From an uncultured delta proteobacterium (GTDB taxonomy: Bacteria; Desulfobacterota; Desulfovibrionia; Desulfovibrionales; Desulfovibrionaceae), in contig CAIMRY010000026.1 of the NCBI GenBank assembly GCA_903843965.1, forward strand, positions 1 through 64,000: 64,000 bases of DNA, written 5' to 3'. The notes under the pieces are model-generated. The model made no database searches and was not told the origin of the DNA. It saw only the letters and a list, made by a program, of their open reading frames with translations. Below are positions 4,038 through 20,227 of this stretch, in pieces. The first letter of the stretch is position 1; the number at the start of each line of letters is the position of its first letter. A program made the position numbers and the translations under genes.

Positions 4038-4178
4038 TGAATAACCACGTCAATGAAAGGCAAGGAAGCAGGAGCTGAAAAATCGTTGCTTCATGGAAAG
4101 ATGCTCTCAAAGTTTGATTCAGAAAACTGTTACAAATCGCTGAGGGAAGTGCAAAATTTCTTACGCTGGAGTATGTGC

Positions 4179-4946
4179 ATGCACATAACAGAATATGTAG
4201 ACGAATACAAAATAAAGGTGCTCATTGCGGAGGACCAGGCGTTGCTCCGTAGCAGCCTCAAGGTCTATCTGGAAACCCAGGGGTCCTGTGAGGTGGTTGG
4301 AGAGGCGAATGACAGTCGAGAGGCTATGCTACTGTTTAGATATCTCAAGCCAGACGTCGTGCTCCTGGGCCTGCCCATGCCTGGTATGGACGGCATAGTT
4401 GCTGTGCGCTCCATCCGTCGTGATTTTCCAGAGGCACGCATCATCGCGCTGACCCCTCACAGAGCCGATAAATCCCTGCACGCGGTCCTAGATTACGACA
4501 TGGACGGCTACGTGATTAAGACCTCCACCCCAGAAGACCTGCTCACAGCCATCCAATCCGTATGCCGTGGAGAGACTCATGTCAGCCCCGAGTCCACTGT
4601 CACGCTCATCAACGGCTACCTCCGCAGAAGGTATTCGACCAAACCCACACAACTGGAGATGCTCACAACCAGGGAAACACATATCCTTGACCTAGTGCTC
4701 TCCGGAATGAAGAATAAGGAAATCGCCAAGAAGCTGCTCATCAGCACCCGCACAGTAGAGAAGCACCGCGACAACTTTACGAAGAAGCTCGGTAAGCAGA
4801 ACCTGCGCCAAGTGCGCGAGTTCGTGAAAGCTCACGGCACACCCTTTGGAATTGATGCGGACACTGGAATCTATTCCGACGGTGTGGAAACGAAAGGCAG
4901 GGGGATGGAGTCATCGTCGGAATCGAATACAATGCGACGGATTTGA
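4179..4946 (+). CDS. LuxR/NarL-type response regulator with phosphoacceptor Asp replaced by Gly
   Basis: A receiver domain (residues about 10-125) is followed by a LuxR-type helix-turn-helix (about 160-222; LTTRETHILDLVLSG, NKEIAKKLLISTRTVEKH). The acidic pair (AEDQ), the conserved Thr (ALT) and Lys (VIK) are present. The phosphoacceptor position reads LLGLPMPGMDG, not LLDLPMPGMDG: codon GGC at 4368-4370 where GAC is expected. Phosphorylation at the usual site should be impossible. I chose ATG 4179 because GGAG at 4168-4171 sits seven bases before it; the longer frame from 4053 has no such site. The C-terminus runs past the HTH and overlaps the convergent XRE gene by 76 bases. It may act constitutively or respond to a ligand. 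Confidence 0.85.
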   Translation: MHITEYVDEYKIKVLIAEDQALLRSSLKVYLETQGSCEVVGEANDSREAMLLFRYLKPDVVLLGLPMPGMDGIVAVRSIRRDFPEARIIALTPHRADKSLHAVLDYDMDGYVIKTSTPEDLLTAIQSVCRGETHVSPESTVTLINGYLRRRYSTKPTQLEMLTTRETHILDLVLSGMKNKEIAKKLLISTRTVEKHRDNFTKKLGKQNLRQVREFVKAHGTPFGIDADTGIYSDGVETKGRGMESSSESNTMRRI

Positions 4947-5779: not shown

Positions 5780-8614
5780 GTGCCTTACAATTCAGCCATT
5801 GGTTCGATTATTCTTGCAGGGGGATTGGGAAAGCCGGGGGGTGCGCAGGGAGATGATTCCATTGGTACATCTATGGGCCGGTATATCCCCCGTGGTCGGC
5901 TATTTGCCTGGATTCTGCTCGCTTTGTGTTTCGCCTGTGTGTTTGGGGTATGGGCATACGCGAGCAAGAGTTCGGAGGACCAGGCGCGTGAGCGTTTTGA
6001 ATTCCGCGCATCTGAGGTTGCCAGTGCCATTGAGGCGCGTTTGGGGGTGTATGAACTTGCCCTGCGCGGTGGGTTGGCACTGTTTTCCTCTCAGGGCGAG
6101 GTGAGCCGCAAACAATGGCGTGACTATGTCAACAAACTCGACCTTCAAGAGGACTACCCAGGCATTCAAGGTATTGGTTATTCACCCGTAGTTGCTGGCA
6201 AGAATAAGAATCAACATATAGAGGCTATTCGGGGGCAGGGCTTTCCAAACTATACGATCCGACCTTCTGGAGAACGTTTAGTTTATACTCCGGTTATCTA
6301 TCTTGAACCGGATAGCGCAATTAACCATCGGGCGTTCGGCTATGACACCCACAGCGAACCTGTTCGGCGTGAGGCAATTGAACGCGCCTGTGACACCGGC
6401 AAGCACTCCATCACTGGAATGATAACGTTGGTACAAGAAAATACCAGTGATGTGCAGAATGGATTTATAATGTTCATGCCGGTGTACTCGTATGAATCAT
6501 TACCGTTTACTGTAGAGGAACGGAGGAAAGCAATAACTGGGTATGTTAATGCTCCTTTCCGAATGACAAATCTTATGAAGAATATTTTAGGAAAGAATTC
6601 CAGAGGGATTGAAATCCAAGTTTATGACATTGAGCCTAAAGATGAGATGACTCTCATGTACTCGAGCAAGGCACAGCAAGTCGCCACAGCGTCTTTGCAT
6701 AGACCAATGTTTACAGCTACGCGCCAGATTGAAATGTTTGGTCGAACCTGGAGATTAAAAGTACAGTCTACCAATGCCTTTGAAGCAACTGTTGACGCAG
6801 GACTTCCTCGCCTGATTCTGATTTCTGGCTTGAGCATCGCCATGCTGTTGTTCTATATACATTTGTCACTAACGAATACAAGGGAGCGTGCAGAGGCCAT
6901 AGCAAATGGTATGACTGGTGCATTGCGTGAGAGCGAGGAAAATATTCGTCTGATCCTTGAGTCTTCTGGTGAGCCTCTCTACGGCATTGACACAAATGGC
7001 GAGTGCACTTTTTGCAATACGGCCTGCCTACGTGTCTTGGGCTATTCAAGCTCAGAAGAACTGCTTGGCAGGAACATGCACGATCTTATCCACCACACCC
7101 ATCCGGACGGCTCGTCTTTTGACGTTCATGACTGCAGAATTTTTCAAGCATTCCTGAACGGTGAAGGAACCCAAGTTACTGACGAGGTGCTCTGGCGGCC
7201 AGACGGCACCAGCTTCCCGACGGAGTACTGGTCTTACCCTCAATTCCGAGGGAACGTGATAGTTGGAGCAGTGGTGGTATTCCGGGATGTCACCGAGAAG
7301 AAGCGAACGGAGCAAGAGCTTCAGGCCGCATACATGGAGATGGAGCAGCGTGTAGAAATTCGCACCGGCGAACTCGCCAAGGCTAACAGCATGCTTGAGA
7401 CAGAGGTCACTGTGCGCAAGCAGGCCCATCGTGAGGTGAGCCTTGTGCTCTCGGCTATCTCTTCCATGCTGGTGAGCTTGGACAACCGGGGGTGTGTGAG
7501 CAAGTGGAACGAGGCTGCGTTCCAGGCATTCAGCATCTCAGAAAAGCAAAGTATAGGCTCAAAGTTCACAGCTCTGCCTCTAACCTGGGAGTGGGACCGC
7601 GTACTGGAGGGGCTTGCGAAGTGTTTTTCAGAGCACCAGACGGTGAAAGTCAATAACCTGTGGTACGAGCGCCCGGACGGCAAGGAGGGATTCCTGTCCC
7701 TGGACATAAGCCCGATCATTGGCGAGCATCTAGAGTCGGAGGGTGTGCTTATCCTCGGGTCGGATATAACGGACATCAAGGTGCTGGAGGCCCAACTCGC
7801 GCAGACCAAGAAACTGGAGTCCGTTGGTCTACTGGCGGCGGGCATCGCGCATGAGATCAACACTCCCATCCAGTACGTTGGCGACACCGTGACGTTCTTG
7901 CGCGACGCCAACGCGGATCTCATGCGGGCGCTGGACATCGCGGCCGATCACGGCCAAACTCGTCAGGGTGAGGTCTGCGTCGAAGAGATCATCGCTCAGG
8001 TACGGGCATGCCTGGAAGAAGTGGACTACCCCTTTCTCAAAGAAGAAATGCCCAAGTCCTTTGCCCGTGCCCTGGAGGGAGTTGACCGCGTGAGCACCAT
8101 CGTGAAGGCCATGCGTAGCTTCTCCCACCCGGGCGAGAGCGAGAAGAAGGCCGTAGACCTCAACCAGGCAATCGAGAACACGCTTATCGTTTCACGAAAC
8201 GAATGGAAGTATGTGGCCACCATTGAAACGAACTTGACTCTGGACTTGCCGCAGGTGGTATGCCTGCCAGGTGAGATGAACCAGGTGCTGCTGAACTTGG
8301 TAGTCAATGCGGCCCACGCCGTGGGCGATGTGATTCGGGGCACGGGGAAGCTTGGCGTCATCCGGGTGAAGACGGTCCTGGAGGATGGGCAGGCGCACAT
8401 CTCCATTTCTGACTCCGGCACAGGCATCCCCGAGGCCCTGCAGAGCAAGATATTCGACCCCTTCTTCACCACAAAGGATGTAGGCAAGGGCACTGGCCAA
8501 GGGCTTACCTTGGCCTACGATATTGTGGTTAATAAACATGGGGGCACCATATTTTTCGACACGCGGGAAGGCGTTGGGACAACCTTCCATGTTGTTCTGC
8601 CTATAGGCGGGTGA
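5780..8614 (+). CDS. CHASE-PAS-PAS sensor histidine kinase
   Basis: 944 residues starting at GTG 5780, with AGGAGG nine bases upstream. Order: transmembrane segment about 40-60, extracytoplasmic CHASE domain about 75-310 (DYPGIQGIGYSP motif), second membrane segment about 345-365, PAS domain about 390-510, coiled coil, second PAS-like region about 555-670, HisKA and HATPase_c. The phospho-accepting histidine is H691 in [10 protein letters not shown] box (NQVLLNLVVNAAHA), G1 (DSGTGIPE) and GKGTGQGL are intact, so it should be active. CHASE domains sense small extracellular ligands. The C-terminal 420 residues closely match the kinase at 9695, implying duplication and likely shared partners in the downstream operon. 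It has shared element copy B upstream. Confidence 0.93.
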   Translation: MPYNSAIGSIILAGGLGKPGGAQGDDSIGTSMGRYIPRGRLFAWILLALCFACVFGVWAYASKSSEDQARERFEFRASEVASAIEARLGVYELALRGGLALFSSQGEVSRKQWRDYVNKLDLQEDYPGIQGIGYSPVVAGKNKNQHIEAIRGQGFPNYTIRPSGERLVYTPVIYLEPDSAINHRAFGYDTHSEPVRREAIERACDTGKHSITGMITLVQENTSDVQNGFIMFMPVYSYESLPFTVEERRKAITGYVNAPFRMTNLMKNILGKNSRGIEIQVYDIEPKDEMTLMYSSKAQQVATASLHRPMFTATRQIEMFGRTWRLKVQSTNAFEATVDAGLPRLILISGLSIAMLLFYIHLSLTNTRERAEAIANGMTGALRESEENIRLILESSGEPLYGIDTNGECTFCNTACLRVLGYSSSEELLGRNMHDLIHHTHPDGSSFDVHDCRIFQAFLNGEGTQVTDEVLWRPDGTSFPTEYWSYPQFRGNVIVGAVVVFRDVTEKKRTEQELQAAYMEMEQRVEIRTGELAKANSMLETEVTVRKQAHREVSLVLSAISSMLVSLDNRGCVSKWNEAAFQAFSISEKQSIGSKFTALPLTWEWDRVLEGLAKCFSEHQTVKVNNLWYERPDGKEGFLSLDISPIIGEHLESEGVLILGSDITDIKVLEAQLAQTKKLESVGLLAAGIAHEINTPIQYVGDTVTFLRDANADLMRALDIAADHGQTRQGEVCVEEIIAQVRACLEEVDYPFLKEEMPKSFARALEGVDRVSTIVKAMRSFSHPGESEKKAVDLNQAIENTLIVSRNEWKYVATIETNLTLDLPQVVCLPGEMNQVLLNLVVNAAHAVGDVIRGTGKLGVIRVKTVLEDGQAHISISDSGTGIPEALQSKIFDPFFTTKDVGKGTGQGLTLAYDIVVNKHGGTIFFDTREGVGTTFHVVLPIGG

Positions 8615-8844
8615 GGCCCAAACATGGAATCTGACGAATAGCTAGGCCGAGTGAATTTACCCTGAGCGTTGGCGTCGATTCTCTGGGCGGATATTCTAAG
8701 CCGGATGAGAACCATCATGTACGCTGCTTTGCTACTGGCACGCAGGGGAAATCTCAATTTTTCGCCGCCCACTGGACATTAGCTGCCAAGTAGGTGAAAG
8801 GATAGCAGAGTTGAGAATGAGCCACTCAAGATTAGGAGTGTCCC

Positions 8845-9693
8845 ATGAAGCCTAAAGTTTTAGTCCTTTGGCTCATTGTCGTTTGCTCCGGCCTTGGCCG
8901 ACCTGAGGCCCACGGCGCGGAGAAGATCCGCTTCGGCATAGTCCCGCAGCAGTCGGCATCGGAACTGGCCAAGCTCTGGGTTCCGCTATTGGGGTATTTG
9001 CAGGAGAAATCCGGCCTTGAGCTTGTCTTCGAGACGGCCAAGGATATCCCGACCTTCGAAAAACGGCTTGCTGCAGGGGAATACGAGGTGGGGTACATGA
9101 ACCCCTACCACTATATCGTTTTTCATGCGGCTCCGGGCTATGCCGCCTTCGCCAGGGAAAAGGGAGTGAAGTTGCAAGGCGTCATCGTTGTACGCAAGGA
9201 TAGCAACTTGACCAAGATTGAAGAACTCGCTGGCAAAACCGTTGCCTTTCCGGCTCCGGCCGCTTTCGCCGCCACCATCCTGCCCCTGGCGCATTTGAAA
9301 AGCCAAGGCATCACTGTCACACCCAGCTTCACCTCCTCCCATGACTCGGTTTACATTGGCGTGGCGAGGGGCTTCTTTCCGGCCGGGGGCGGCATCAATC
9401 GCACCTTTGAGAACGCCAAGCCAGAAACGCGAGACGAGTTGCGAGTCCTTTGGATGACGCCGCAATATACACCGCACGCCCTTGCTGCGCATCCGCGCGT
9501 GCCCAAGGAGTCCGTGCGACGGCTCCAGGCGGCCATGCTCAGCATGGACGCTGACCCTCGCGGCAGGGAAGTTCTTGCCCGGCTCAACTTCAAGGGATTC
9601 GAGGAAGGGCGAGACGCCGACTGGTATGACATCCGCAAACTGGGAATCCGCGTGCTGGAATACGTGGGCAAAAACACCGCTGGGGAGCGTTAG
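8845..9693 (+). CDS. PhnD-like periplasmic substrate-binding protein (kinase-associated)
   Basis: 282 residues with a signal peptide cut near AHGA-EKIRFG. The mature part follows the PhnD/phosphite-phosphonate binding protein fold: IRFGIVPQQSASELAKLW, the YMNPYHYIVFH region, and VRKDSNLTKIEELAGKTVAF. No ABC permease or ATPase lies nearby. Instead the kinase gene starts one base after its stop, so it probably serves as the ligand sensor for that kinase rather than for uptake. An AGGAG site precedes ATG 8845. The real ligand (phosphonate, phosphite or another oxyanion) cannot be read from sequence. Confidence 0.88.
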   Translation: MKPKVLVLWLIVVCSGLGRPEAHGAEKIRFGIVPQQSASELAKLWVPLLGYLQEKSGLELVFETAKDIPTFEKRLAAGEYEVGYMNPYHYIVFHAAPGYAAFAREKGVKLQGVIVVRKDSNLTKIEELAGKTVAFPAPAAFAATILPLAHLKSQGITVTPSFTSSHDSVYIGVARGFFPAGGGINRTFENAKPETRDELRVLWMTPQYTPHALAAHPRVPKESVRRLQAAMLSMDADPRGREVLARLNFKGFEEGRDADWYDIRKLGIRVLEYVGKNTAGER

Positions 9694-9694
9694 A

Positions 9695-11614
9695 ATGTCC
9701 ATCCGGTTCAAGACAGTTCTTGGCGTCGCAGCCATTGAGGCCGTCCTGCTCTGCTTCCTCGTATCGAACGGCCTGATCTTCCTACGCGACTCTAACATCG
9801 GTCAGTTGGACAAACGAGCCAGGACCACTGCGGAACTCTTCGCCACTGCAACTAGGTCCGATATCCTTACTCTGGATTTAGCCACCCTGGAGAGCCAGGT
9901 TGAACTTCTGACCAGAGAACCAGGTGTGGTCTACGCTCAGGTGGGCACCCCAAACCACGGAGTATTGGCCCAGCGTGGCGATAAGGCTGCCTCTGGGGAG
10001 GGAATAAGCCGCGCCAAATCTGTCATTGAAGTAGAAGGTTCTGTCCTTGGCTGGGTGGAAGTGGGGCTTTCCGACGATTCCATCGCCCAGACCCTGAAGG
10101 ACGCGCGGCAAAACGCCCTGGCGGGGGGAGCTTTAGGCATGTTGCTCTCCGCCCTCTTCTCCTTGGGCCTTGGTTATTATCTCACACGCCAGCTCTCTAA
10201 CCTGACCATGGCTTCAGAGGAGATTGCCGCTGGGAACTTCAGCCACCGCATCCCCGTCCGTACCAAGGATGAGTTGGGCAAAGTGGCTCTCGCATTCAAC
10301 CATATGTCCGAAGAGCTGAATCGCAGTTATGTTGGCATGGAGGAACGCATCGAGTCGCGCACGACGGAATTGGCCCAGGCCAATGAAGCGATGGCAAGGG
10401 AAGTGGTCGAGCGTAAGCAGGCCCACCGCGAAGTGAGCTTAGTGCTCTCGGCCATCTCCTCAATGCTGGTAGGTGTGGATATGAAGGGGCGCGTGAGCAA
10501 GTGGAACAAGTCCGCCACGCTGGTCTTGCGCACCTCGGTGGAGCAGAGCCTGGGAAATGATTTTGCTTTTTTGCCCCTGACCTGGGACAGGGATCGCGTG
10601 ATGGAGGGGCTGGAAAAGAGTCGGGCCGAACGCCAGCCGGTGAAGATCAATAACCTGCGATATGAACGTGCGAACGACAAAGAAGGATTCCTCTTTTTGA
10701 ACATAAGCCCGATACTGGACGAGCAGGGTGAGATGGAAGGCGTGCTCATCCTTGGAACGGACATCACGGACTTCAGGGTGTTAGAAGCACAGCTTTCACA
10801 GGCCCAGAAGCTGGAGTCCATCGGCCAGTTGGCTGCGGGTATCGCTCATGAGATCAACACGCCCGCGCAGTATGTGGGTGACACGGTGACCTTCCTGCGA
10901 GACGCCACGGCGGACCTTATGCGCGCGCTGGACATGGCGGCCGAATTGAACGGTACAGTCCTCCGTGACGAGGTCTGTACAGCAGAGGCCATAGCTCGCT
11001 TGCGGGCCGCGCTGGAGAAGGCTGATTATACCTTTCTTAAAGAGGAAATGCCCAAATCCTTCGCGCGCGCCTTGGAAGGTATTGAACGCGTGAGCGCCAT
11101 CGTGCGGGCCATGCGCAGTTTCTCCCACCCTGGCGAGAGCGAGAAGAAGGCCGTGGACATCAATCAGGCCATTGAAAACACCGTCATCGTCTCGCGTAAT
11201 GAATGGAAGTACGTGGCCACCATGGAAACAGATCTTGATCCAAACTTGCCGCGAGTTGTGTGCCTTCCGGCGGAATTAAACCAAGTGTTTCTGAACCTGG
11301 TGGTCAATGCTTCCCACGCAGTGGAGGATGTGGTCCGCAACACGCAAACGCTGGGTGTCCTGCGGATAGCAACGGTCCTGGAAGACAATCACGTGCGCAT
11401 CTCCATAACCGACTCCGGTTCAGGCATTCCAGAGGCGATTCGCAACAAGATTTTCGACCCCTTCTTCACCACGAAGGAGGTTGGCAAGGGCACCGGCCAA
11501 GGACTGACAATGGCTTATGACATTGTCGTGAACAAGCACGGCGGGACCATATCTTTCGACACAGAAGAAGGGCGTGGCACCACATTCCATATTCGGCTGC
11601 CTCTGGATGAGTGA
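9695..11614 (+). CDS. HAMP-PAS sensor histidine kinase
   Basis: 639 residues from ATG 9695 (GGAG seven bases before). Order: membrane segment 8-29, small periplasmic domain about 30-145, second membrane segment about 147-168, HAMP about 170-222 ([18 protein letters not shown]), coiled coil, PAS-like region about 250-365, HisKA with H385 in [12 protein letters not shown], and HATPase_c with intact N, G1 and GKGTGQGL boxes. It is in an operon directly after the PhnD-like protein, its likely periplasmic partner. The C-terminal two thirds are a close paralogue of the CHASE kinase at 5780, so both may feed the same regulators. Confidence 0.94.
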
Positions 11615-11636
11615 GGCAGGGCCATGAGGTATGCCC

Positions 11637-12848
11637 ATGACGAAGCCTAGAATCCTCTTCGTGGATGACGAGCGGAACATTCTGGACAGCGTCCGGCTTT
11701 CGCTGCGCCCATTGCGAAACGAGTGGGACATGGCGTTCATGCCAAGCGCGGTCGAAGCATTGAAACTCATGGAAACGGAGTTCTTTGACGTTGTAGTGAG
11801 TGACATGCGCATGCCCGGCATGGACGGAGCACAGCTTCTGGCTGAAGTAGCCGAGCGTTCACCGGAGACGGTGCGCATGATACTCTCTGGCTATTCTGAT
11901 CAGGCCAGCGTGATGCGCACTGTCAAGCTGGCCCATCGGTACATAAGCAAGCCATGTCCGGCAGAGGAGCTTAGAATAGCCATCAGTGGGGCTATGCGTC
12001 TGCGTGAGATTATTCGTAGCGGCGCCTTAAAACGGTTTGTTTCTCGCATTGAGTCACTGCCTCCTTTGCCTCTTCTGTATCAGCGGCTCATGAACGAGCT
12101 TCAGGACGAGAACTCTTCGCTACAGAGCATCGGTGACATCATCGGCCAGGACATGGCCATGTCTTCCAGCATTCTGCGTCTGGTAAACTCTGCTTTTTTT
12201 GGCCTTCCCGTCCATGTTTCCAATCTGCAACATGCGGTGAAGCTCCTGGGCATAGAAACCATTCGCACGTTGGTGCTGTCCATCGGCTTGTTCTCCGATG
12301 TCGGGAAAGCCACGCCGGTGGGCTTCTCGCTGGAACAACTTTGGGCCCACAGCACCCGCACATCCTGCTTTTGCAAAGCCATCGCCGAGGTAGAGCGCCA
12401 AGACACCAGAATGCGCGACGACTGCTTCATCGCGGGCATGCTGCATGACGTGGGCAAGCTGGTGCTGGTAACAATCATGCCAGAGGTCTACGGCGAAGTG
12501 CTGACACGCGTTCAAGGTGGCAGCCTGCATCTACATGTGGCTGAGCGAGAGGCTTTCGGCACCACACATTCGGAGGCTGGCGCTTATCTGTTGAGCCTGT
12601 GGGGGTTCAAGGACGCCATCATCGACGCCGTATGCTGGCACCACTCCCCAGAACATATATCCTGCGCCGAGTTCTCGCCTTTGGTTGCCGTTGCCGTTGC
12701 GGACTATTTCGACCATGACTTAGTGAGCATCAATAAGGACCGCAAGTGGCGGTCGAACGAAATCCCAAACACACCCAAGGATGACTATGTGGCCCGGCTG
12801 CACGAATGGCGGAGTTTGTGCCAGAATGTTTTTCTGGAGGAGGTCTAA
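11637..12848 (+). CDS. Receiver-HDOD response regulator
   Basis: A receiver domain (residues 3-120) with phosphoacceptor D56 in VVSDMRMPGMDG and Lys in YISKPCPAEEL is followed by an HDOD domain (about 140-340; LPPLPLLYQRLMNEL, VNSAFFG, GMLHDVGKLVL). HDOD proteins act in signalling and post-transcriptional control and generally lack phosphodiesterase activity. ATG 11637 is favoured over 11631 because GAGG lies seven bases before it. The stop abuts the GTG of the next gene. A diverged fragment of a gene very like its receiver end is found at 15497-15617. Confidence 0.92.
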   Translation: MTKPRILFVDDERNILDSVRLSLRPLRNEWDMAFMPSAVEALKLMETEFFDVVVSDMRMPGMDGAQLLAEVAERSPETVRMILSGYSDQASVMRTVKLAHRYISKPCPAEELRIAISGAMRLREIIRSGALKRFVSRIESLPPLPLLYQRLMNELQDENSSLQSIGDIIGQDMAMSSSILRLVNSAFFGLPVHVSNLQHAVKLLGIETIRTLVLSIGLFSDVGKATPVGFSLEQLWAHSTRTSCFCKAIAEVERQDTRMRDDCFIAGMLHDVGKLVLVTIMPEVYGEVLTRVQGGSLHLHVAEREAFGTTHSEAGAYLLSLWGFKDAIIDAVCWHHSPEHISCAEFSPLVAVAVADYFDHDLVSINKDRKWRSNEIPNTPKDDYVARLHEWRSLCQNVFLEEV

Positions 12849-13967
12849 GTGGCTAATAAAATACTGTTTGTGGATGACGAGTTAGCACTATTGGAAAGTT
12901 TTCGCGTCACGCTACACAGGCGTTTTGATGTGTATACAGCCCACGGCCCTGAGGAGGGTTTGAAAGTGCTGCAAGGGTCTGAGGCTTTTGCAGTGGTGGT
13001 TTCCGACCTAAAAATGCCCAGAATGGATGGCATCACCTTCCTGAGCCGTGTGCGCGAAGTCGCCCCTGATACTGTGCGGTTGATGCTCACAGGCTTTGCT
13101 GATGTGGAAGTCGCAATCGGGGCAGTGAATGAGGGACAGGTATTCCGTTTTCTCACGAAACCCTGTCCCCAGGAGGTAATGGTTAAGGCGCTCCAGGCGG
13201 CATTGGACCAACATCGACTGGTGATGGCGGAGCGGGAACTTTTGCGTGGTACTCTGCGCGGCAGTATCCAGGTGCTCACCGAAGCTCTTAGCCTCGCCAA
13301 CCCCGAAGCATACGGCCGGTCACAGAGGATCAAGACTCTGACCCGGAGGTTAGCAAAAGCTGCTGATATCCCTCTGACCTGGGAGTTGGAACTCACTGCA
13401 ATGCTTTCGCAAATTGGTTGTATGGCCCTGCCTCGCCCGGTGGTGGAGAAGATCTCCCTAGGTCAGGAACTGACGCCTGATGAGCAGCGTCTCTATGAGA
13501 GCCACCCCGCCGTTGGTTCTGGACTCTTGGAGCATATCCCACGGCTTGAGCGTGTGGCGGAGATGATAGGTCGCCAGCACGAACGCTTTGATGCTAACTC
13601 CAGCACTGGCAAGGGAATTGGCGCACGAATTTTAAAGCTTGCTACGGATTATGACATGCTGGAAAGCCGTGGAGGTTCTCCGGTAGACATCCTTGAGCAT
13701 ATGAACAGTTGCAAGGGATGCTATGATCCTGGCCTGCTCAGGGCCTTTGAGCAGGCCGTTGGTCGAGATGCCGGTTATATCCTTCGCCGAGTTCCCCTCA
13801 AGGACTTACAGGAAAATATGGTGCTTGAAGAAGGCATAGTGACCGAGCAAGGGCTGTTGTTGCTGGCCAAGGGGGCGGAACTTACCACTGTGGGTATTCA
13901 ACGGCTCATCCAGGCAAAATCAGTTTTCACAATTATTGAACCCGTATTTGTCCGCGTGCCAACGTAG
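12849..13967 (+). CDS. Receiver protein with degenerate HD-GYP domain
   Basis: 372 residues starting at GTG 12849, directly after the TAA of the preceding gene and preceded by GGAGGAGG. The receiver (3-120) has phosphoacceptor D53 (VVSDLKMPRMDG) and Lys in FLTKPCP. The C-terminal region aligns in layout with HD-GYP proteins (GSIQVLTEALSLANP, SHPAVGSGLLEHIP, IGRQHERFD). However, the HD pair is replaced by SQIGCMALP and the GYP loop by ANSSTG. Loss of metal ligands suggests it is not a cyclic-di-GMP phosphodiesterase; it may bind the nucleotide or a partner. Confidence 0.88.
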   Translation: MANKILFVDDELALLESFRVTLHRRFDVYTAHGPEEGLKVLQGSEAFAVVVSDLKMPRMDGITFLSRVREVAPDTVRLMLTGFADVEVAIGAVNEGQVFRFLTKPCPQEVMVKALQAALDQHRLVMAERELLRGTLRGSIQVLTEALSLANPEAYGRSQRIKTLTRRLAKAADIPLTWELELTAMLSQIGCMALPRPVVEKISLGQELTPDEQRLYESHPAVGSGLLEHIPRLERVAEMIGRQHERFDANSSTGKGIGARILKLATDYDMLESRGGSPVDILEHMNSCKGCYDPGLLRAFEQAVGRDAGYILRRVPLKDLQENMVLEEGIVTEQGLLLLAKGAELTTVGIQRLIQAKSVFTIIEPVFVRVPT

Positions 13968-14022
13968 TTGTTTTCAGCTATTGTTGGCTTTAGGCCAATT
14001 TTTTAATCTATTAGGAGGCAGT

Positions 14023-14400
14023 TTGTCCAGAATTCTAAGAGTGCTGCTGGTGGATGATGAAGAGTATGTTGTAGATGCACTAAAGCTGCTGTTGGAGAGG
14101 GCGATGCTGTGCCAAGTCTTCACCGCAAATTCCGGAAAGGCTGCCCTGCGTCTTGCTCAGTCTCAAAAGCCCGACGTAATCTTGCTAGACGTCATGATGC
14201 CTGGGATGAGCGGTGGTGAAGTCGCGGAGGCATTGCAAGAATCCACCGCGACCAGCAACATCCCTGTAATATTTCTCACAGGGCTGTTGGGTAAAAGCGA
14301 ACTACCAGGACACCGCAGCACTATTGGTGGCAAAATTTATGTATCAAAGCCTGCTCCTCTTGACGCAATTATTCAAGCCATTACTGAATCCTGCAAGTGA
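14023..14400 (+). CDS. Stand-alone receiver domain (CheY-like)
   Basis: 125 residues consisting only of a receiver: acidic pair VDDEEY, phosphoacceptor D56 in ILLDVMMPGMSG, Thr in FLTG, Lys in YVSKPAP. I chose TTG 14023 because AGGAGG at 14013-14018 is right before it; the frame is open upstream to 13936 but without a site. It closes the five-gene signalling operon and probably shuttles phosphate or modulates the two kinases. Its last 20 bases overlap the 3' end of the convergent unknown gene. Confidence 0.88.
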   Translation: MSRILRVLLVDDEEYVVDALKLLLERAMLCQVFTANSGKAALRLAQSQKPDVILLDVMMPGMSGGEVAEALQESTATSNIPVIFLTGLLGKSELPGHRSTIGGKIYVSKPAPLDAIIQAITESCK

Positions 14401-17784: not shown

Positions 17785-18276
17785 ATGCCTCTTGACCCAT
17801 TCCCCCTCCCTGGCCTAGCTTCCACCATGAACACTCTCACCAACGGCCTGGTTATCCTCGGTCCCGTCGACACTCCAGGGCAGCGCCATACTCAGCCGCT
17901 GCCTCAGTTTCTGGACGGAGTTCAGGCAGGGTTTCCTTCCCCCGCCGACGACTTCATCGACAAGCGCCTGGATCTCAATGAGCACCTTATCTCCCATCCC
18001 GCAGCTACCTTCTTCGTACGAGCAGTGGGTGATTCCATGCTTGGCTCCGGCATCCACGACGGCGACCTCTTGATTGTTGACCGGGCCATTGAGGCCCAGG
18101 TGGGCAAGACCATCATCGCTGCGGTCCATGGCGAACTCACGGTAAAACGCCTGGAGAAACGCGGCGAGCGCCTGATGCTGGTTCCCGCCAACCCGAACTT
18201 CCCCTCCATCGATGTCACGGACGGAGAGGGGTTCGAGATCTGGGGCGTTGTCACCTACGTCATCCATAAGCTCTAA
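17785..18276 (+). CDS. umuD: UmuD-like S24 peptidase (no UmuC partner)
   Basis: The region from residue 37 matches UmuD: cleavage site Ala-Gly in VQAGFPSPADDF, then DKRLDLNEHLISHPAATFFV. The catalytic Ser lies in GDSMLGSGIHDGDLLIVD and the catalytic Lys in AAVHGELTVKRL. UmuD is cut on RecA filaments and joins UmuC to form polymerase V for translesion synthesis. The usual umuC gene is absent; the next gene is a DUF927 protein. ATG 17785 (163 residues) and ATG 17827 (149 residues) are both possible and neither has a clear ribosome site. It could instead regulate the mobile element as a LexA/CI-like switch, but it has no DNA-binding domain. Confidence 0.88.
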   Translation: MPLDPFPLPGLASTMNTLTNGLVILGPVDTPGQRHTQPLPQFLDGVQAGFPSPADDFIDKRLDLNEHLISHPAATFFVRAVGDSMLGSGIHDGDLLIVDRAIEAQVGKTIIAAVHGELTVKRLEKRGERLMLVPANPNFPSIDVTDGEGFEIWGVVTYVIHKL

Positions 18277-18315
18277 GACTAGCCGCCATAAACATTTATA
18301 AATCGAGGTGCTGCA

Positions 18316-18390
18316 GTGACTACAAATGTACCCATGAACAGCCCGACCTCATTGGGGCAGACCGTGGCTGATGGAGATCATAATGGCTGA
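18316..18390 (+). CDS. 24-aa leader ORF overlapping the DUF927 gene
   Basis: GTG 18316 is preceded by GAGG with a seven-base gap and opens a 24-codon frame. Its TGA (18388-18390) overlaps the ATG of the DUF927 gene at 18383. The arrangement suggests translational coupling. The peptide (MTTNVPMNSPTSLGQ...) has no recognisable features. It could be a regulatory leader or a decayed gene end. Confidence 0.35.
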   Translation: MTTNVPMNSPTSLGQTVADGDHNG

Positions 18391-20227
18391 GGCAGAGTTG
18401 CTGTTGGGTAGGGACGGTGCTTCCCTGGACTCGAAGTTCGTCGTTCAGCCAGATGGGATCTACTTCCTTGAAGAGGACAAGAGCGGTGAGGTGACTCCTG
18501 TCTTGGTCTGCTCGACGCTGCGGATTCTGGCCAACACCAGAAACTCTGACGGGAAGGAATGGGGCTTTTACCTTGAGGTGCTTGATCCCGAGGGGCAGCC
18601 TCATCGTTGGGCAATGCCAGCGAGGTTGCTGGCGGGAGGTAGCGGCTACTGCTCGGAACTGATGGCGCTTGGACTGCGCGTCATTGGGAACAAAGGCAAA
18701 CAACGTTTAGGCGAATACTTGAACTTGGCCATTACAGAAACTAGCGCCCTTTGCGTTGATCGCATTGGCTGGCATGGCCAATCATTTGTCTTGCTTGATG
18801 AAGTCTATGGTGATCAGGCGGGAGAGTTGATAGTTCCCCAAGGCATCCTGAGTGAAAATCCCTTCCGCCAGAAAGGATCCCTTGATGAGTGGAAAAGGAA
18901 CGTAGGCCGTTATTGCGTCGGCAACTCCCGCCTCGTGCTTGGTGTTTCTGCAGCCCTTGCCGCTCCCCTATTGGAACCCTTGAACGAGGAATCCGGGGGA
19001 CTGCATTTGGTCGGCGACTCTTCCATAGGGAAGACAACTGCGTTGCGGGTGGCAGGGTCGGTATGTGGTGGTGGCCCCAGGGGGTTCATCCGGCCATGGA
19101 GAGTCACTGACAACGCTCTCGAAGTCTTAGCTGCGTCCCATTGCGACTCACTCTTGTGTCTGGATGAGATGGGCCAGGCCGAGTCTCATGTCGTGTCCAA
19201 GACTGCATACATGCTGGCCAACGAGCATGGCAAAGGACGAGCAAAGGGGGACGGACAAGGACGGAAGTCGCACACATGGCGGCTACTTTTTTTGTCCACA
19301 GGTGAAGTGACGCTTTCAGACAAGGTGGCCGAAGATGGCCGTGGTCGGGCCAAAGCTGGCCAATCTGTTCGTGTAGTGGACATCCCTGCCGATGCTGGGG
19401 CCGACCTCGGCCTCTTTGAGGAATTGCATGGGTATGAAAGCGCTGACCTCTTCGCCCGCGACTTGAAAGACGCTTCAGCCAGCTACTATGGAACGCCGCT
19501 TCGGTCCTTTCTTCAACAATTGGTGATGCACCGCGACCACGCGACAAAGTCCGCTCGCGGGATCATGAGCTTCTTTGAAATGAACAACTGCCCTAAGGAC
19601 GCCGATGGGCAAGTACTCCGCGTCTGTGGAAGGTTTGCCCTGCTTGCTGCTGCTGGAGAAATCGCCACTGAATTGGGCATACTCCCATGGCCCAGAGAAG
19701 AAGCCTTCAAGGCAGCCGCAACGTGCTTTAGGGCTTGGCTAGAATCGCGTGGGGGGGCAGTTGAACAGAGTGGAGCAAAGGGGCTTGATAAGGTTAGAAC
19801 CTTTCTTCGGCTCAACGAGACCACTCGCTTTGAGGACATGGACGCGAAATCCCCCCTCCCAGTTAGTAACCTAGCCGGATACCGTAACCGCAAGAATGGA
19901 GTGGACGAATTTTTGGTGTCCCCGAAGGTCTTTCGTGAAGAGATATGTAGCGGGCTGAATGTGAAACCCGTCTGCGCCGAACTAAAAATGGCTGGCTATC
20001 TGCTTTCTGAGCCAAAGCGGAATACCAAGACAGCGCGAACGCCGGGTGGCAGGAAGAAAATGTACGCCATCTCGTCAGCTGTTTTGAGCGGGGACAGCGG
20101 GGACAGTGGGGACACGCTAGAGCCCCTAAGCCTTGCGCCGTCCCCGATGGAAGATCCCCCGAGCGGGGACAACGGGGACACCTCAGCGAGTATGCCTCCC
20201 GTCACGGAAACTGTCCCCGATGTCTAG
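18383..20227 (+). CDS. DUF927-domain helicase/primase-like ATPase of a mobile element
   Basis: 614 residues from ATG 18383, with GGAG six bases upstream. The DUF927 core spans about residues 50-330 with a Walker A (GDSSIGKTT) and a Walker B (LLCLDEMG). GKGRAKGDGQGR and the WRLLFLSTGE region follow. DUF927 proteins are found in plasmid, phage and integrative-element replication modules, often fused to primase domains; no primase domain is present here. The C-terminus is low-complexity (SGDSGDSGDT, then SGDNGDT), encoded by GGGGACA repeats. It probably serves replication or mobilisation of the element carrying the recombinase at 21390. Confidence 0.85.
   Translation: MAEAELLLGRDGASLDSKFVVQPDGIYFLEEDKSGEVTPVLVCSTLRILANTRNSDGKEWGFYLEVLDPEGQPHRWAMPARLLAGGSGYCSELMALGLRVIGNKGKQRLGEYLNLAITETSALCVDRIGWHGQSFVLLDEVYGDQAGELIVPQGILSENPFRQKGSLDEWKRNVGRYCVGNSRLVLGVSAALAAPLLEPLNEESGGLHLVGDSSIGKTTALRVAGSVCGGGPRGFIRPWRVTDNALEVLAASHCDSLLCLDEMGQAESHVVSKTAYMLANEHGKGRAKGDGQGRKSHTWRLLFLSTGEVTLSDKVAEDGRGRAKAGQSVRVVDIPADAGADLGLFEELHGYESADLFARDLKDASASYYGTPLRSFLQQLVMHRDHATKSARGIMSFFEMNNCPKDADGQVLRVCGRFALLAAAGEIATELGILPWPREEAFKAAATCFRAWLESRGGAVEQSGAKGLDKVRTFLRLNETTRFEDMDAKSPLPVSNLAGYRNRKNGVDEFLVSPKVFREEICSGLNVKPVCAELKMAGYLLSEPKRNTKTARTPGGRKKMYAISSAVLSGDSGDSGDTLEPLSLAPSPMEDPPSGDNGDTSASMPPVTETVPDV

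Follow-up and report, generated by a model that had tools for sequence, protein, structure and literature searches.

What might a phosphonate-type periplasmic binding protein do in a row of signalling genes with no transporter beside it, and where would its signal go? We asked this of a locus in a 64,000-nucleotide stretch of DNA (the window) from an uncultured member of the Desulfovibrionaceae (GenBank assembly GCA_903843965.1, contig CAIMRY010000026.1, positions 1 to 64,000, forward strand). Between positions 8845 and 14400, five plus-strand genes encode, in order, a PhnD-like binding protein, a histidine kinase (HK2), a response regulator joining a receiver (REC) to an HDOD domain, a second joining a receiver to a degenerate HD-GYP domain, and a lone receiver. 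An earlier note on this DNA had described five tightly packed genes, and so they are: all open reading frames (ORFs) are real, the gaps between them are 1, 16, 0 and 55 bases, and the Pfam domains are those claimed. The note had also known of no described system with this set; the exact set was indeed found only here, but its principle is known from the AioXS and ArrXS pairs and from networks around HnoD. The five-gene set is a join of two separately recurring modules and was seen as a whole only in the window, so that the co-conservation the note had proposed to look for is absent for the five genes together but present in each half. No PhnD-type gene stood beside any of 20 other REC-HD-GYP loci, and no HDOD gene followed the PhnD-type gene in any of 57 other contiguous clusters (one of these, L164, having an empty chain). 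Salinivibrio does have an HDOD gene near its PhnD-type gene, but on the opposite strand.

The first module pairs the PhnD-like periplasmic protein with a HAMP receptor part. The binding protein (8845..9693) matches Phosphonate-bd (PF12974, E 4e-67) and has a signal-peptide-like N-terminus; its putative membrane partner is the N-terminal portion of HK2 (9695..10339, plus strand), which comprises a transmembrane helix, a PAS-like periplasmic domain, a second transmembrane helix and HAMP. In a gammaproteobacterial sample of 394 genomes, from the order of Vibrio tapetis, the binding protein was found in 39 genomes (E<=1e-30) and the receptor part in 42 (E<=1e-10; 57 at E<=1e-3). Both were present in 33, and in all 33 the two were adjacent on the same strand, 7-81 bases apart. 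The odds ratio for co-occurrence is 211 with a p value of 1e-33, which overstates independence because the genomes are related. Closer to the source genome, the PhnD-like gene occurred in 4 of 297 genomes of the source order (E<=1e-30, source genome counted) and in 5 of 395 of the phylum sample, and the receptor part in 2 of 119 genomes of the order, both of which also had the binding protein. Kinases in two genomes of another genus (G124 and G182) carry the receptor part at 48-50% identity and are missing from the 119-genome matches, presumably because they lie outside that sample.

Among 22 named loci, two (L018 and L019) extend no further than the binding protein; the receptor part came directly next in 13 of the 20 with at least 1 kb after it. 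Some queries for this check were taken from the same loci, and the window's own sequence gave the same 13, three of them weakly. Partner outputs by Pfam were kinases, hybrid kinases, GGDEF proteins (two Aliarcobacter metagenome-assembled genomes, MAGs) and a GGDEF-EAL protein (a Halothiobacillus MAG), and in a planctomycete MAG the binding protein precedes a different hybrid kinase. The receptor part was present in 50 of the 57 clusters; an alternative count of 51 includes L022, which the direct receptor-part check did not support, and L164 was missed as a partner in the 57-cluster counts though it has a 1218-aa receptor kinase. Module 1 is a widespread, uncharacterised receptor pair, and its binding protein and receptor periplasmic domain are co-inherited.

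An AlphaFold2 model of the receptor part (pLDDT 87.7) shows a long helix, a PAS-like sheet, a second long helix and HAMP. Its nearest structures (VIA) were an integrative WalK-YycH model (Z 15.1, root-mean-square deviation (rmsd) 3.4, 214 aligned), the periplasmic domain of a LapD orthologue (Z 13.2, rmsd 3.4, 118 aligned) and CitA (Z 12.5, rmsd 2.2, 91 aligned). The periplasmic domain of LapD acts on another periplasmic protein. Docking by the binding protein would fit this likeness, weakly, as with helical models such Z scores may arise from a shared arrangement.

Several loci showed variants of the pair. In two Chromatiales MAGs (L004 and L012, absent from a 64-sequence alignment because an overlap filter removed the ORFs, and present in alignment A1) no receptor part adjoins the binding protein; directly upstream of it in L004 is a CheA-like hybrid with Hpt, HATPase, CheW and REC domains. 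The source genome itself holds a separate PhnD-type binding protein with an sCache-HAMP-PAS-HisKA kinase (L002, G000:C42) and a TtrS-like fusion of a PhnD domain to a kinase (L003, G000:C17). In L151, L163, L164 and L181-L184, receptor-part hybrid kinases stand beside divergent REC-bearing genes and a sigma-54 response regulator, with a REC-SpoIIE protein by Pfam in L151 and L181; the binding protein is present in the first three and absent in L181-L184, a possible case of sensor loss.

The second module is a triad of a kinase, a REC-HDOD regulator and a REC protein with a dead HD-GYP domain, which in relatives is served by other sensors. REC-HD-GYP relatives were found in 91 of 149 relatives (E<=1e-20), some matching through the receiver only. 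We chose 20 neighbourhoods from these matches, mostly the best ones and not at random. Kinase, REC-HDOD and REC-HD-GYP genes occurred in that order in nine (L063, L064, L065, L067, L068, L069, L070, L073 and L081); L071 has the triad genes with others between them, L066 has the HDOD and HD-GYP genes but no kinase, and the remaining nine have neither arrangement. A 1097-aa protein upstream of the HDOD gene in L066 was considered as the kinase and rejected as AsmA, and L066 was therefore not counted as a triad. L081 (G000:C18:1500-18353) is a second copy of the triad in the source genome, with a kinase ORF of 1799 aa, and is followed by a further REC-HD protein whose HD-GYP motif is apparently intact.

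In the window the triad regulators are the REC-HDOD protein (11631..12848, plus strand; PF00072 and PF08668) and the REC-degenerate HD-GYP protein (12849..13967, plus strand; HD_5 by Pfam). The canonical HD-GYP motifs are HDIGK, HH and GYP. The earlier note had called this domain broken, which the alignment bears out: SQIG replaces HDIGK, QH replaces HH and GYP is absent, so that the HD, HH and GYP catalytic residues are all lost. The degenerate state is common to the aligned triad relatives, across genera and with open frames. In V. tapetis, V. coralliilyticus and Aliiglaciecola, too, the regulators that neighbour the pair have it. In the regulator alignments the receivers retain their Asp, Ser/Thr and Lys positions, and the HD metal-site residues of REC-HDOD are kept in 12 of 12 aligned sequences, the window's included.

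The two modules meet inside HK2. Its whole ORF (9695-11614) has HAMP, PAS, HisKA and HATPase domains by Pfam, the HisKA match being under the Pfam cut-off, and the PAS, HisKA and HATPase part (10340..11614, plus strand) is a triad-type kinase core. A second kinase, HK1 (5780..8614, plus strand; CHASE-PAS-PAS-HisKA-HATPase by Pfam), ends 230 bases upstream of the PhnD-like gene and is 65% identical to HK2 in the PAS domain and 76% in the kinase core, a match that places HK1 with the system. In a maximum-likelihood tree of kinase cores, HK1 and HK2 are sisters (99/93) inside the clade of triad kinases, joined next by the triad kinase of a congener, G269 (99/96), and then by the PhnD-linked kinase of the same congener (97/91). 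G269 has both a PhnD-kinase pair (L029) and a triad (L063), on different contigs. The sensor parts group otherwise: that of HK2 goes with G269's (82/82, weak), and these two group with the hybrid kinases of G124 and G182 (100/99 for all four), whose kinase cores match the HK2 core poorly. The disagreement between the core tree and the sensor-part tree suggests that a sensor part moved onto a resident triad-type core. Judged from these trees, a resident kinase core probably acquired the module 1 sensor, and HK1 is the probable original kinase of the HDOD and HD-GYP regulators.

We read the locus as one in which the PhnD protein is the sensor subunit of HK2, the kinase core is of a kind shared with HK1, the output is at the protein level, and module 1 has been joined to module 2, and we give this reading a probability of roughly 0.6. 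The PhnD-like protein would bind a small ligand in its cleft and dock on the PAS-like periplasmic domain of HK2, and docking would shift the kinase/phosphatase balance of HK2 through HAMP and PAS, as family knowledge suggests. On the evidence of the tree and of how the genes are ordered in relatives, HK1 and HK2 are both predicted to phosphorylate the REC-HDOD and REC-degenerate HD-GYP receivers, since their cores are of the same kind and that of HK2 is triad-type. Because no DNA-binding domain is present and the HD-GYP catalytic residues are lost, both regulators would act by protein contact, most likely adjusting cyclic di-GMP (c-di-GMP) enzymes in the manner of HnoD on HnoB. Targets for such an action exist, as the source genome has 15 EAL matches. 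At the level of history, a mobile sensor pair would have joined a resident kinase-HDOD-HD-GYP triad. The earlier note took the binding protein for a sensor and not for part of a transporter, and saw two kinases that plausibly share regulators; both views agree with ours. Its related claim that no transporter is encoded also stood: a scan of ten proteins from 4.0 to 20.2 kb, which covered some but not all of the ORFs there, found none.

A number of observations weigh against this reading. The receptor part occurs with no binding protein nearby in 9 of the 42 gammaproteobacterial genomes that have it, eight times in a hybrid kinase before a sigma-54 response regulator and once (L179) in an L008-like cluster, so it can work without a binding protein or with a distant one; BLAST found no binding protein in L179-L188, nor did a profile search that lacked a positive control. 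Conversely, 6 of the 39 genomes with the binding protein have no receptor part at the threshold used, and 7 of the 20 named loci have none next door. Downstream, 29 of the 57 clusters lack a contiguous HD, GGDEF or sigma-54 gene, and the EAL (13 of 57) and GGDEF (11 of 57) genes within 9 kb may be near chance. The window cluster lacks an HnoB-like REC-EAL partner. The PhnD-type sensors of L002 and L003 keep Ser140 and not the His, so other sensors of the source genome also differ in the pocket and a pocket change alone is no proof of a new ligand class. Ligand binding, docking and phosphotransfer are predicted steps.

The pocket itself was compared with that of AioX, whose residues are Tyr88, Cys106, Tyr131, Ser161, Ser163, His192 and Asp210 (PMC5908839), using phmmer alignments in which chain numbering plus 21 gives the published numbers. 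In the window protein Tyr88 is replaced by I68, Cys106 by N86, Tyr131 by L110, and Ser161 and Ser163 by A140 and A142, with a gap at Asp210; six of the seven residues are lost and only the His (H166) is kept. By the same alignments PtxB keeps two Tyr, two Ser and the His. Across 64 aligned homologues I68 is found in 63, A140 in 60, and N86, Ile/Leu 110, Ala/Gly 142, H166 and GGG at 181-183 in all 64, a uniformity partly expected because the homologues were collected by similarity to the window protein. The replacements point to a ligand held without the usual oxyanion contacts, and phosphate, phosphonate and arsenic oxyanions are improbable ligands. The AlphaFold2 model of the binding protein (pLDDT 91.5) is nearest (VIA) to PtxB (Z 25.3, rmsd 2.9, 250 aligned), ArrX (Z 24.8) and AioX (Z 22.3), with the sterol-binding protein BstB (7t1m) at Z 21.3; BstB demonstrates that the fold can hold a hydrophobic ligand (PMC10942540).

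A wider proposal, which we advance tentatively, is that the pair belongs to a sensor family with a non-oxyanion ligand that sets sessile-life decisions through interchangeable outputs, namely SypG-like sigma-54 regulators, diguanylate cyclases and degenerate HD-GYP proteins. Its members occur in Pseudomonadota, Campylobacterota and the source lineage. Contiguous downstream genes in the 57 clusters encoded an HD-type protein in 8, a sigma-54 response regulator in 16 and a GGDEF protein in 5, together 28 clusters. Around the pair, V. coralliilyticus p319 encodes a heme NO-binding protein with an ATP-binding (kinase-like) protein, Hpt, HD and EAL proteins, a second ATP-binding protein and CheC, and Salinivibrio an EAL protein and an ATP-binding protein besides its HDOD protein. 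The domain-checked neighbourhood of L139 (4564-15677) has STAS, OmpA, SLBB export and tyrosine-kinase-like proteins upstream and glycosyltransferases downstream. There the PhnD-like gene lies directly before a hybrid kinase inside a syp-like exopolysaccharide cluster, the layout matching the syp arrangement. Syp-like gene order has been partly described (PMC5801674, PMC8941931). Many further loci have similar gene lengths and order (L140-L162 in part, by length only). Two candidate identifications were rejected: the gammaproteobacterial upstream trio (~275, 710 and 232 aa) is not a respiratory enzyme, since in L139 it comprises OmpA, SLBB/poly-export and tyrosine-kinase-like proteins, and an ORF just after the V. 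tapetis genes is YaeQ, not H-NOX.

The strongest of the alternatives, although an unlikely one, is that the locus encodes an ordinary sensor of phosphorus, sulfur or arsenic oxyanions, like AioXSR or TtrSR, whose kinase controls respiration genes and whose true output is a LuxR-type or other DNA-binding regulator. The nearest solved relatives of the binding protein in the PDB are AioX, PtxB and ArrX, and members of the PhnD family detect oxyanions in established X-S pairs (PMC5908839), as they probably do in TtrS/ThsS too (PMC5408782). A LuxR-type response regulator (4053-4946, Pfam) does end 3.9 kb upstream of the PhnD-like gene, and with HK1 also upstream a nearby DNA-binding partner is possible. 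The earlier note's claim of no DNA-binding output consequently holds inside the cluster, where the regulators are HDOD, HD_5 and REC alone, and not for its surroundings. Set against the oxyanion alternative are the six replaced pocket residues and their near-fixed pattern in the 64 homologues, the ten neighbouring proteins scanned, none an oxidoreductase, and the 20 REC-HD-GYP loci, none with a LuxR-type DNA-binding match (E 1e-4).

Somewhat less probable still is the alternative that two unrelated systems lie together, one being HK1 with its HDOD and HD-GYP partners, the other a separate PhnD-HK2 pair that has landed among them and signals to unlinked regulators. Around the G269 pair, on its separate contig, the 17 kb retrieved contained no receiver match; the pairs of G124 and G182 take the form of a hybrid kinase, with no further receiver match in 18 and 17 kb, all as this alternative would have it. 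It fits poorly, however, with an HK2 core that falls in the triad-kinase clade both in G269 and in the window, and with an HK2 gene that ends 16 bases before the HDOD gene. A third alternative sees in the HDOD and HD-GYP proteins only remnants, unphosphorylated or decaying, that drift in the accessory genome and have no output; it would suit a five-gene set confined to this genome and a catalytically dead HD-GYP, but is highly improbable given a degenerate state shared across genera in open frames and receivers that keep Asp, Ser/Thr and Lys.

With the sensor-subunit reading preferred, the locus can be set beside known systems. Binding-protein/kinase pairs are established in AioXS and ArrXS (PMC5908839). 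Like AioXS(R), ArxXS(R) and ArrXS(R), the window has a PhnD-family periplasmic protein of the same fold beside a sensor kinase with no transporter; unlike them, its pocket residues are replaced and its regulators are HDOD and dead HD-GYP proteins rather than AtoC- or CitB-like DNA binders. In the Hno system of Shewanella oneidensis, two kinases, HnoK and HnoS, converge on HnoB, HnoC and HnoD, a set that likewise includes a degenerate HD-GYP protein. Within a kinase network, HnoD inhibits HnoB by binding it directly, with no enzyme activity involved (PMC6335343), and by this analogy would be the best model for the window HD-GYP protein. The V. coralliilyticus PhnD-kinase pair adjoins H-NOX, EAL and degenerate HD-GYP genes, and that of Aliiglaciecola adjoins REC-EAL, degenerate REC-HD_5 and an H-NOX-like ORF (35% by BLAST, no Pfam check). 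The window cluster differs in having no REC-EAL, H-NOX or DNA-binding regulator, with REC-HDOD instead; the source genome does have an H-NOX gene, on another contig.

The syp/rbd/scv/eps systems (SypF-SypG) share the same binding protein and receptor part, with a hybrid kinase and then the sigma-54 response regulator in the 16 clusters counted above, whereas the window's outputs are HDOD and HD-GYP; neither a sigma-54 response regulator nor a polysaccharide gene was found among the ten proteins scanned at 4-20 kb. LuxPQ, TorTS and NspS-MbaA, also binding-protein-coupled receptors, share the working principle, in which a soluble binding protein of the periplasm governs a kinase or c-di-GMP enzyme in the membrane. 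LuxP and TorT belong to other binding-protein families (PMC5908839). The REC-HDOD architecture is that of DVU0330 from Desulfovibrio vulgaris and GsmR from Xanthomonas campestris, and the HD residues are kept in both DVU0330 and the window protein; DVU0330 has weak activity on an artificial substrate, and the available part of the same source mentions no binding-protein sensor for either regulator (PMC4114195). Our literature search found no published description of the window system, a weak negative, in part because general c-di-GMP papers swamped one of the searches.

The lone receiver (14023..14400, plus strand; REC by Pfam) is the least secure member of the gene row. It has a TTG start with AGGAGG just upstream, and no lone receiver stood at the equivalent place in the 20 REC-HD-GYP loci examined. 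The source genome has 40 receiver matches to it, the next best 39% identical. G+C falls from ~0.55 to 0.51 at this gene, and just 5' of it, at 13983-13999, is a hairpin with a T run that resembles a terminator; with 11 terminator-like sites found against 9.5 expected, this hairpin is no better than chance. Promoter and terminator scans gave counts at chance level, Rfam and tRNA scans of the window gave no match, and there were no inverted repeats in 8600-8860 or 13960-14030. No EAL domain was found among the neighbour proteins scanned. Near the cluster, an S24 peptidase (LexA/UmuD-like) and a DUF927 protein at 17785-20227 hint at mobile or accessory DNA.

The working principle of the window system is that of the already known binding-protein-coupled receptors such as AioXS and LuxPQ; the sensor pair itself is widespread and unstudied, and there is less surprise in the five-gene set than in the pair it exposed. 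Little is known of the signals to which SypF and RscS respond, according to one paper (PMC12369376), and another describes the HnoS input as unidentified (PMC6335343). In Vibrionaceae eps clusters, a 2018 paper saw between D and F an isolated gene for a periplasmic protein of phosphate/phosphonate type ('PABC') and left its transporterless state unexplained (PMC5801674). Our results suggest that this gene, matched by place and annotation and not by sequence, encodes the sensor subunit of the kinase next door. If the wider proposal is true, module 1 would be the missing periplasmic input for those SypF-type kinases that have it, and perhaps for HnoS too. The window adds an output unseen elsewhere, the REC-HDOD regulator, and illustrates how a sensor moved onto a resident kinase core may thereby be wired to existing regulators. 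Identifying the ligand of the pair would bear on many bacteria at once.

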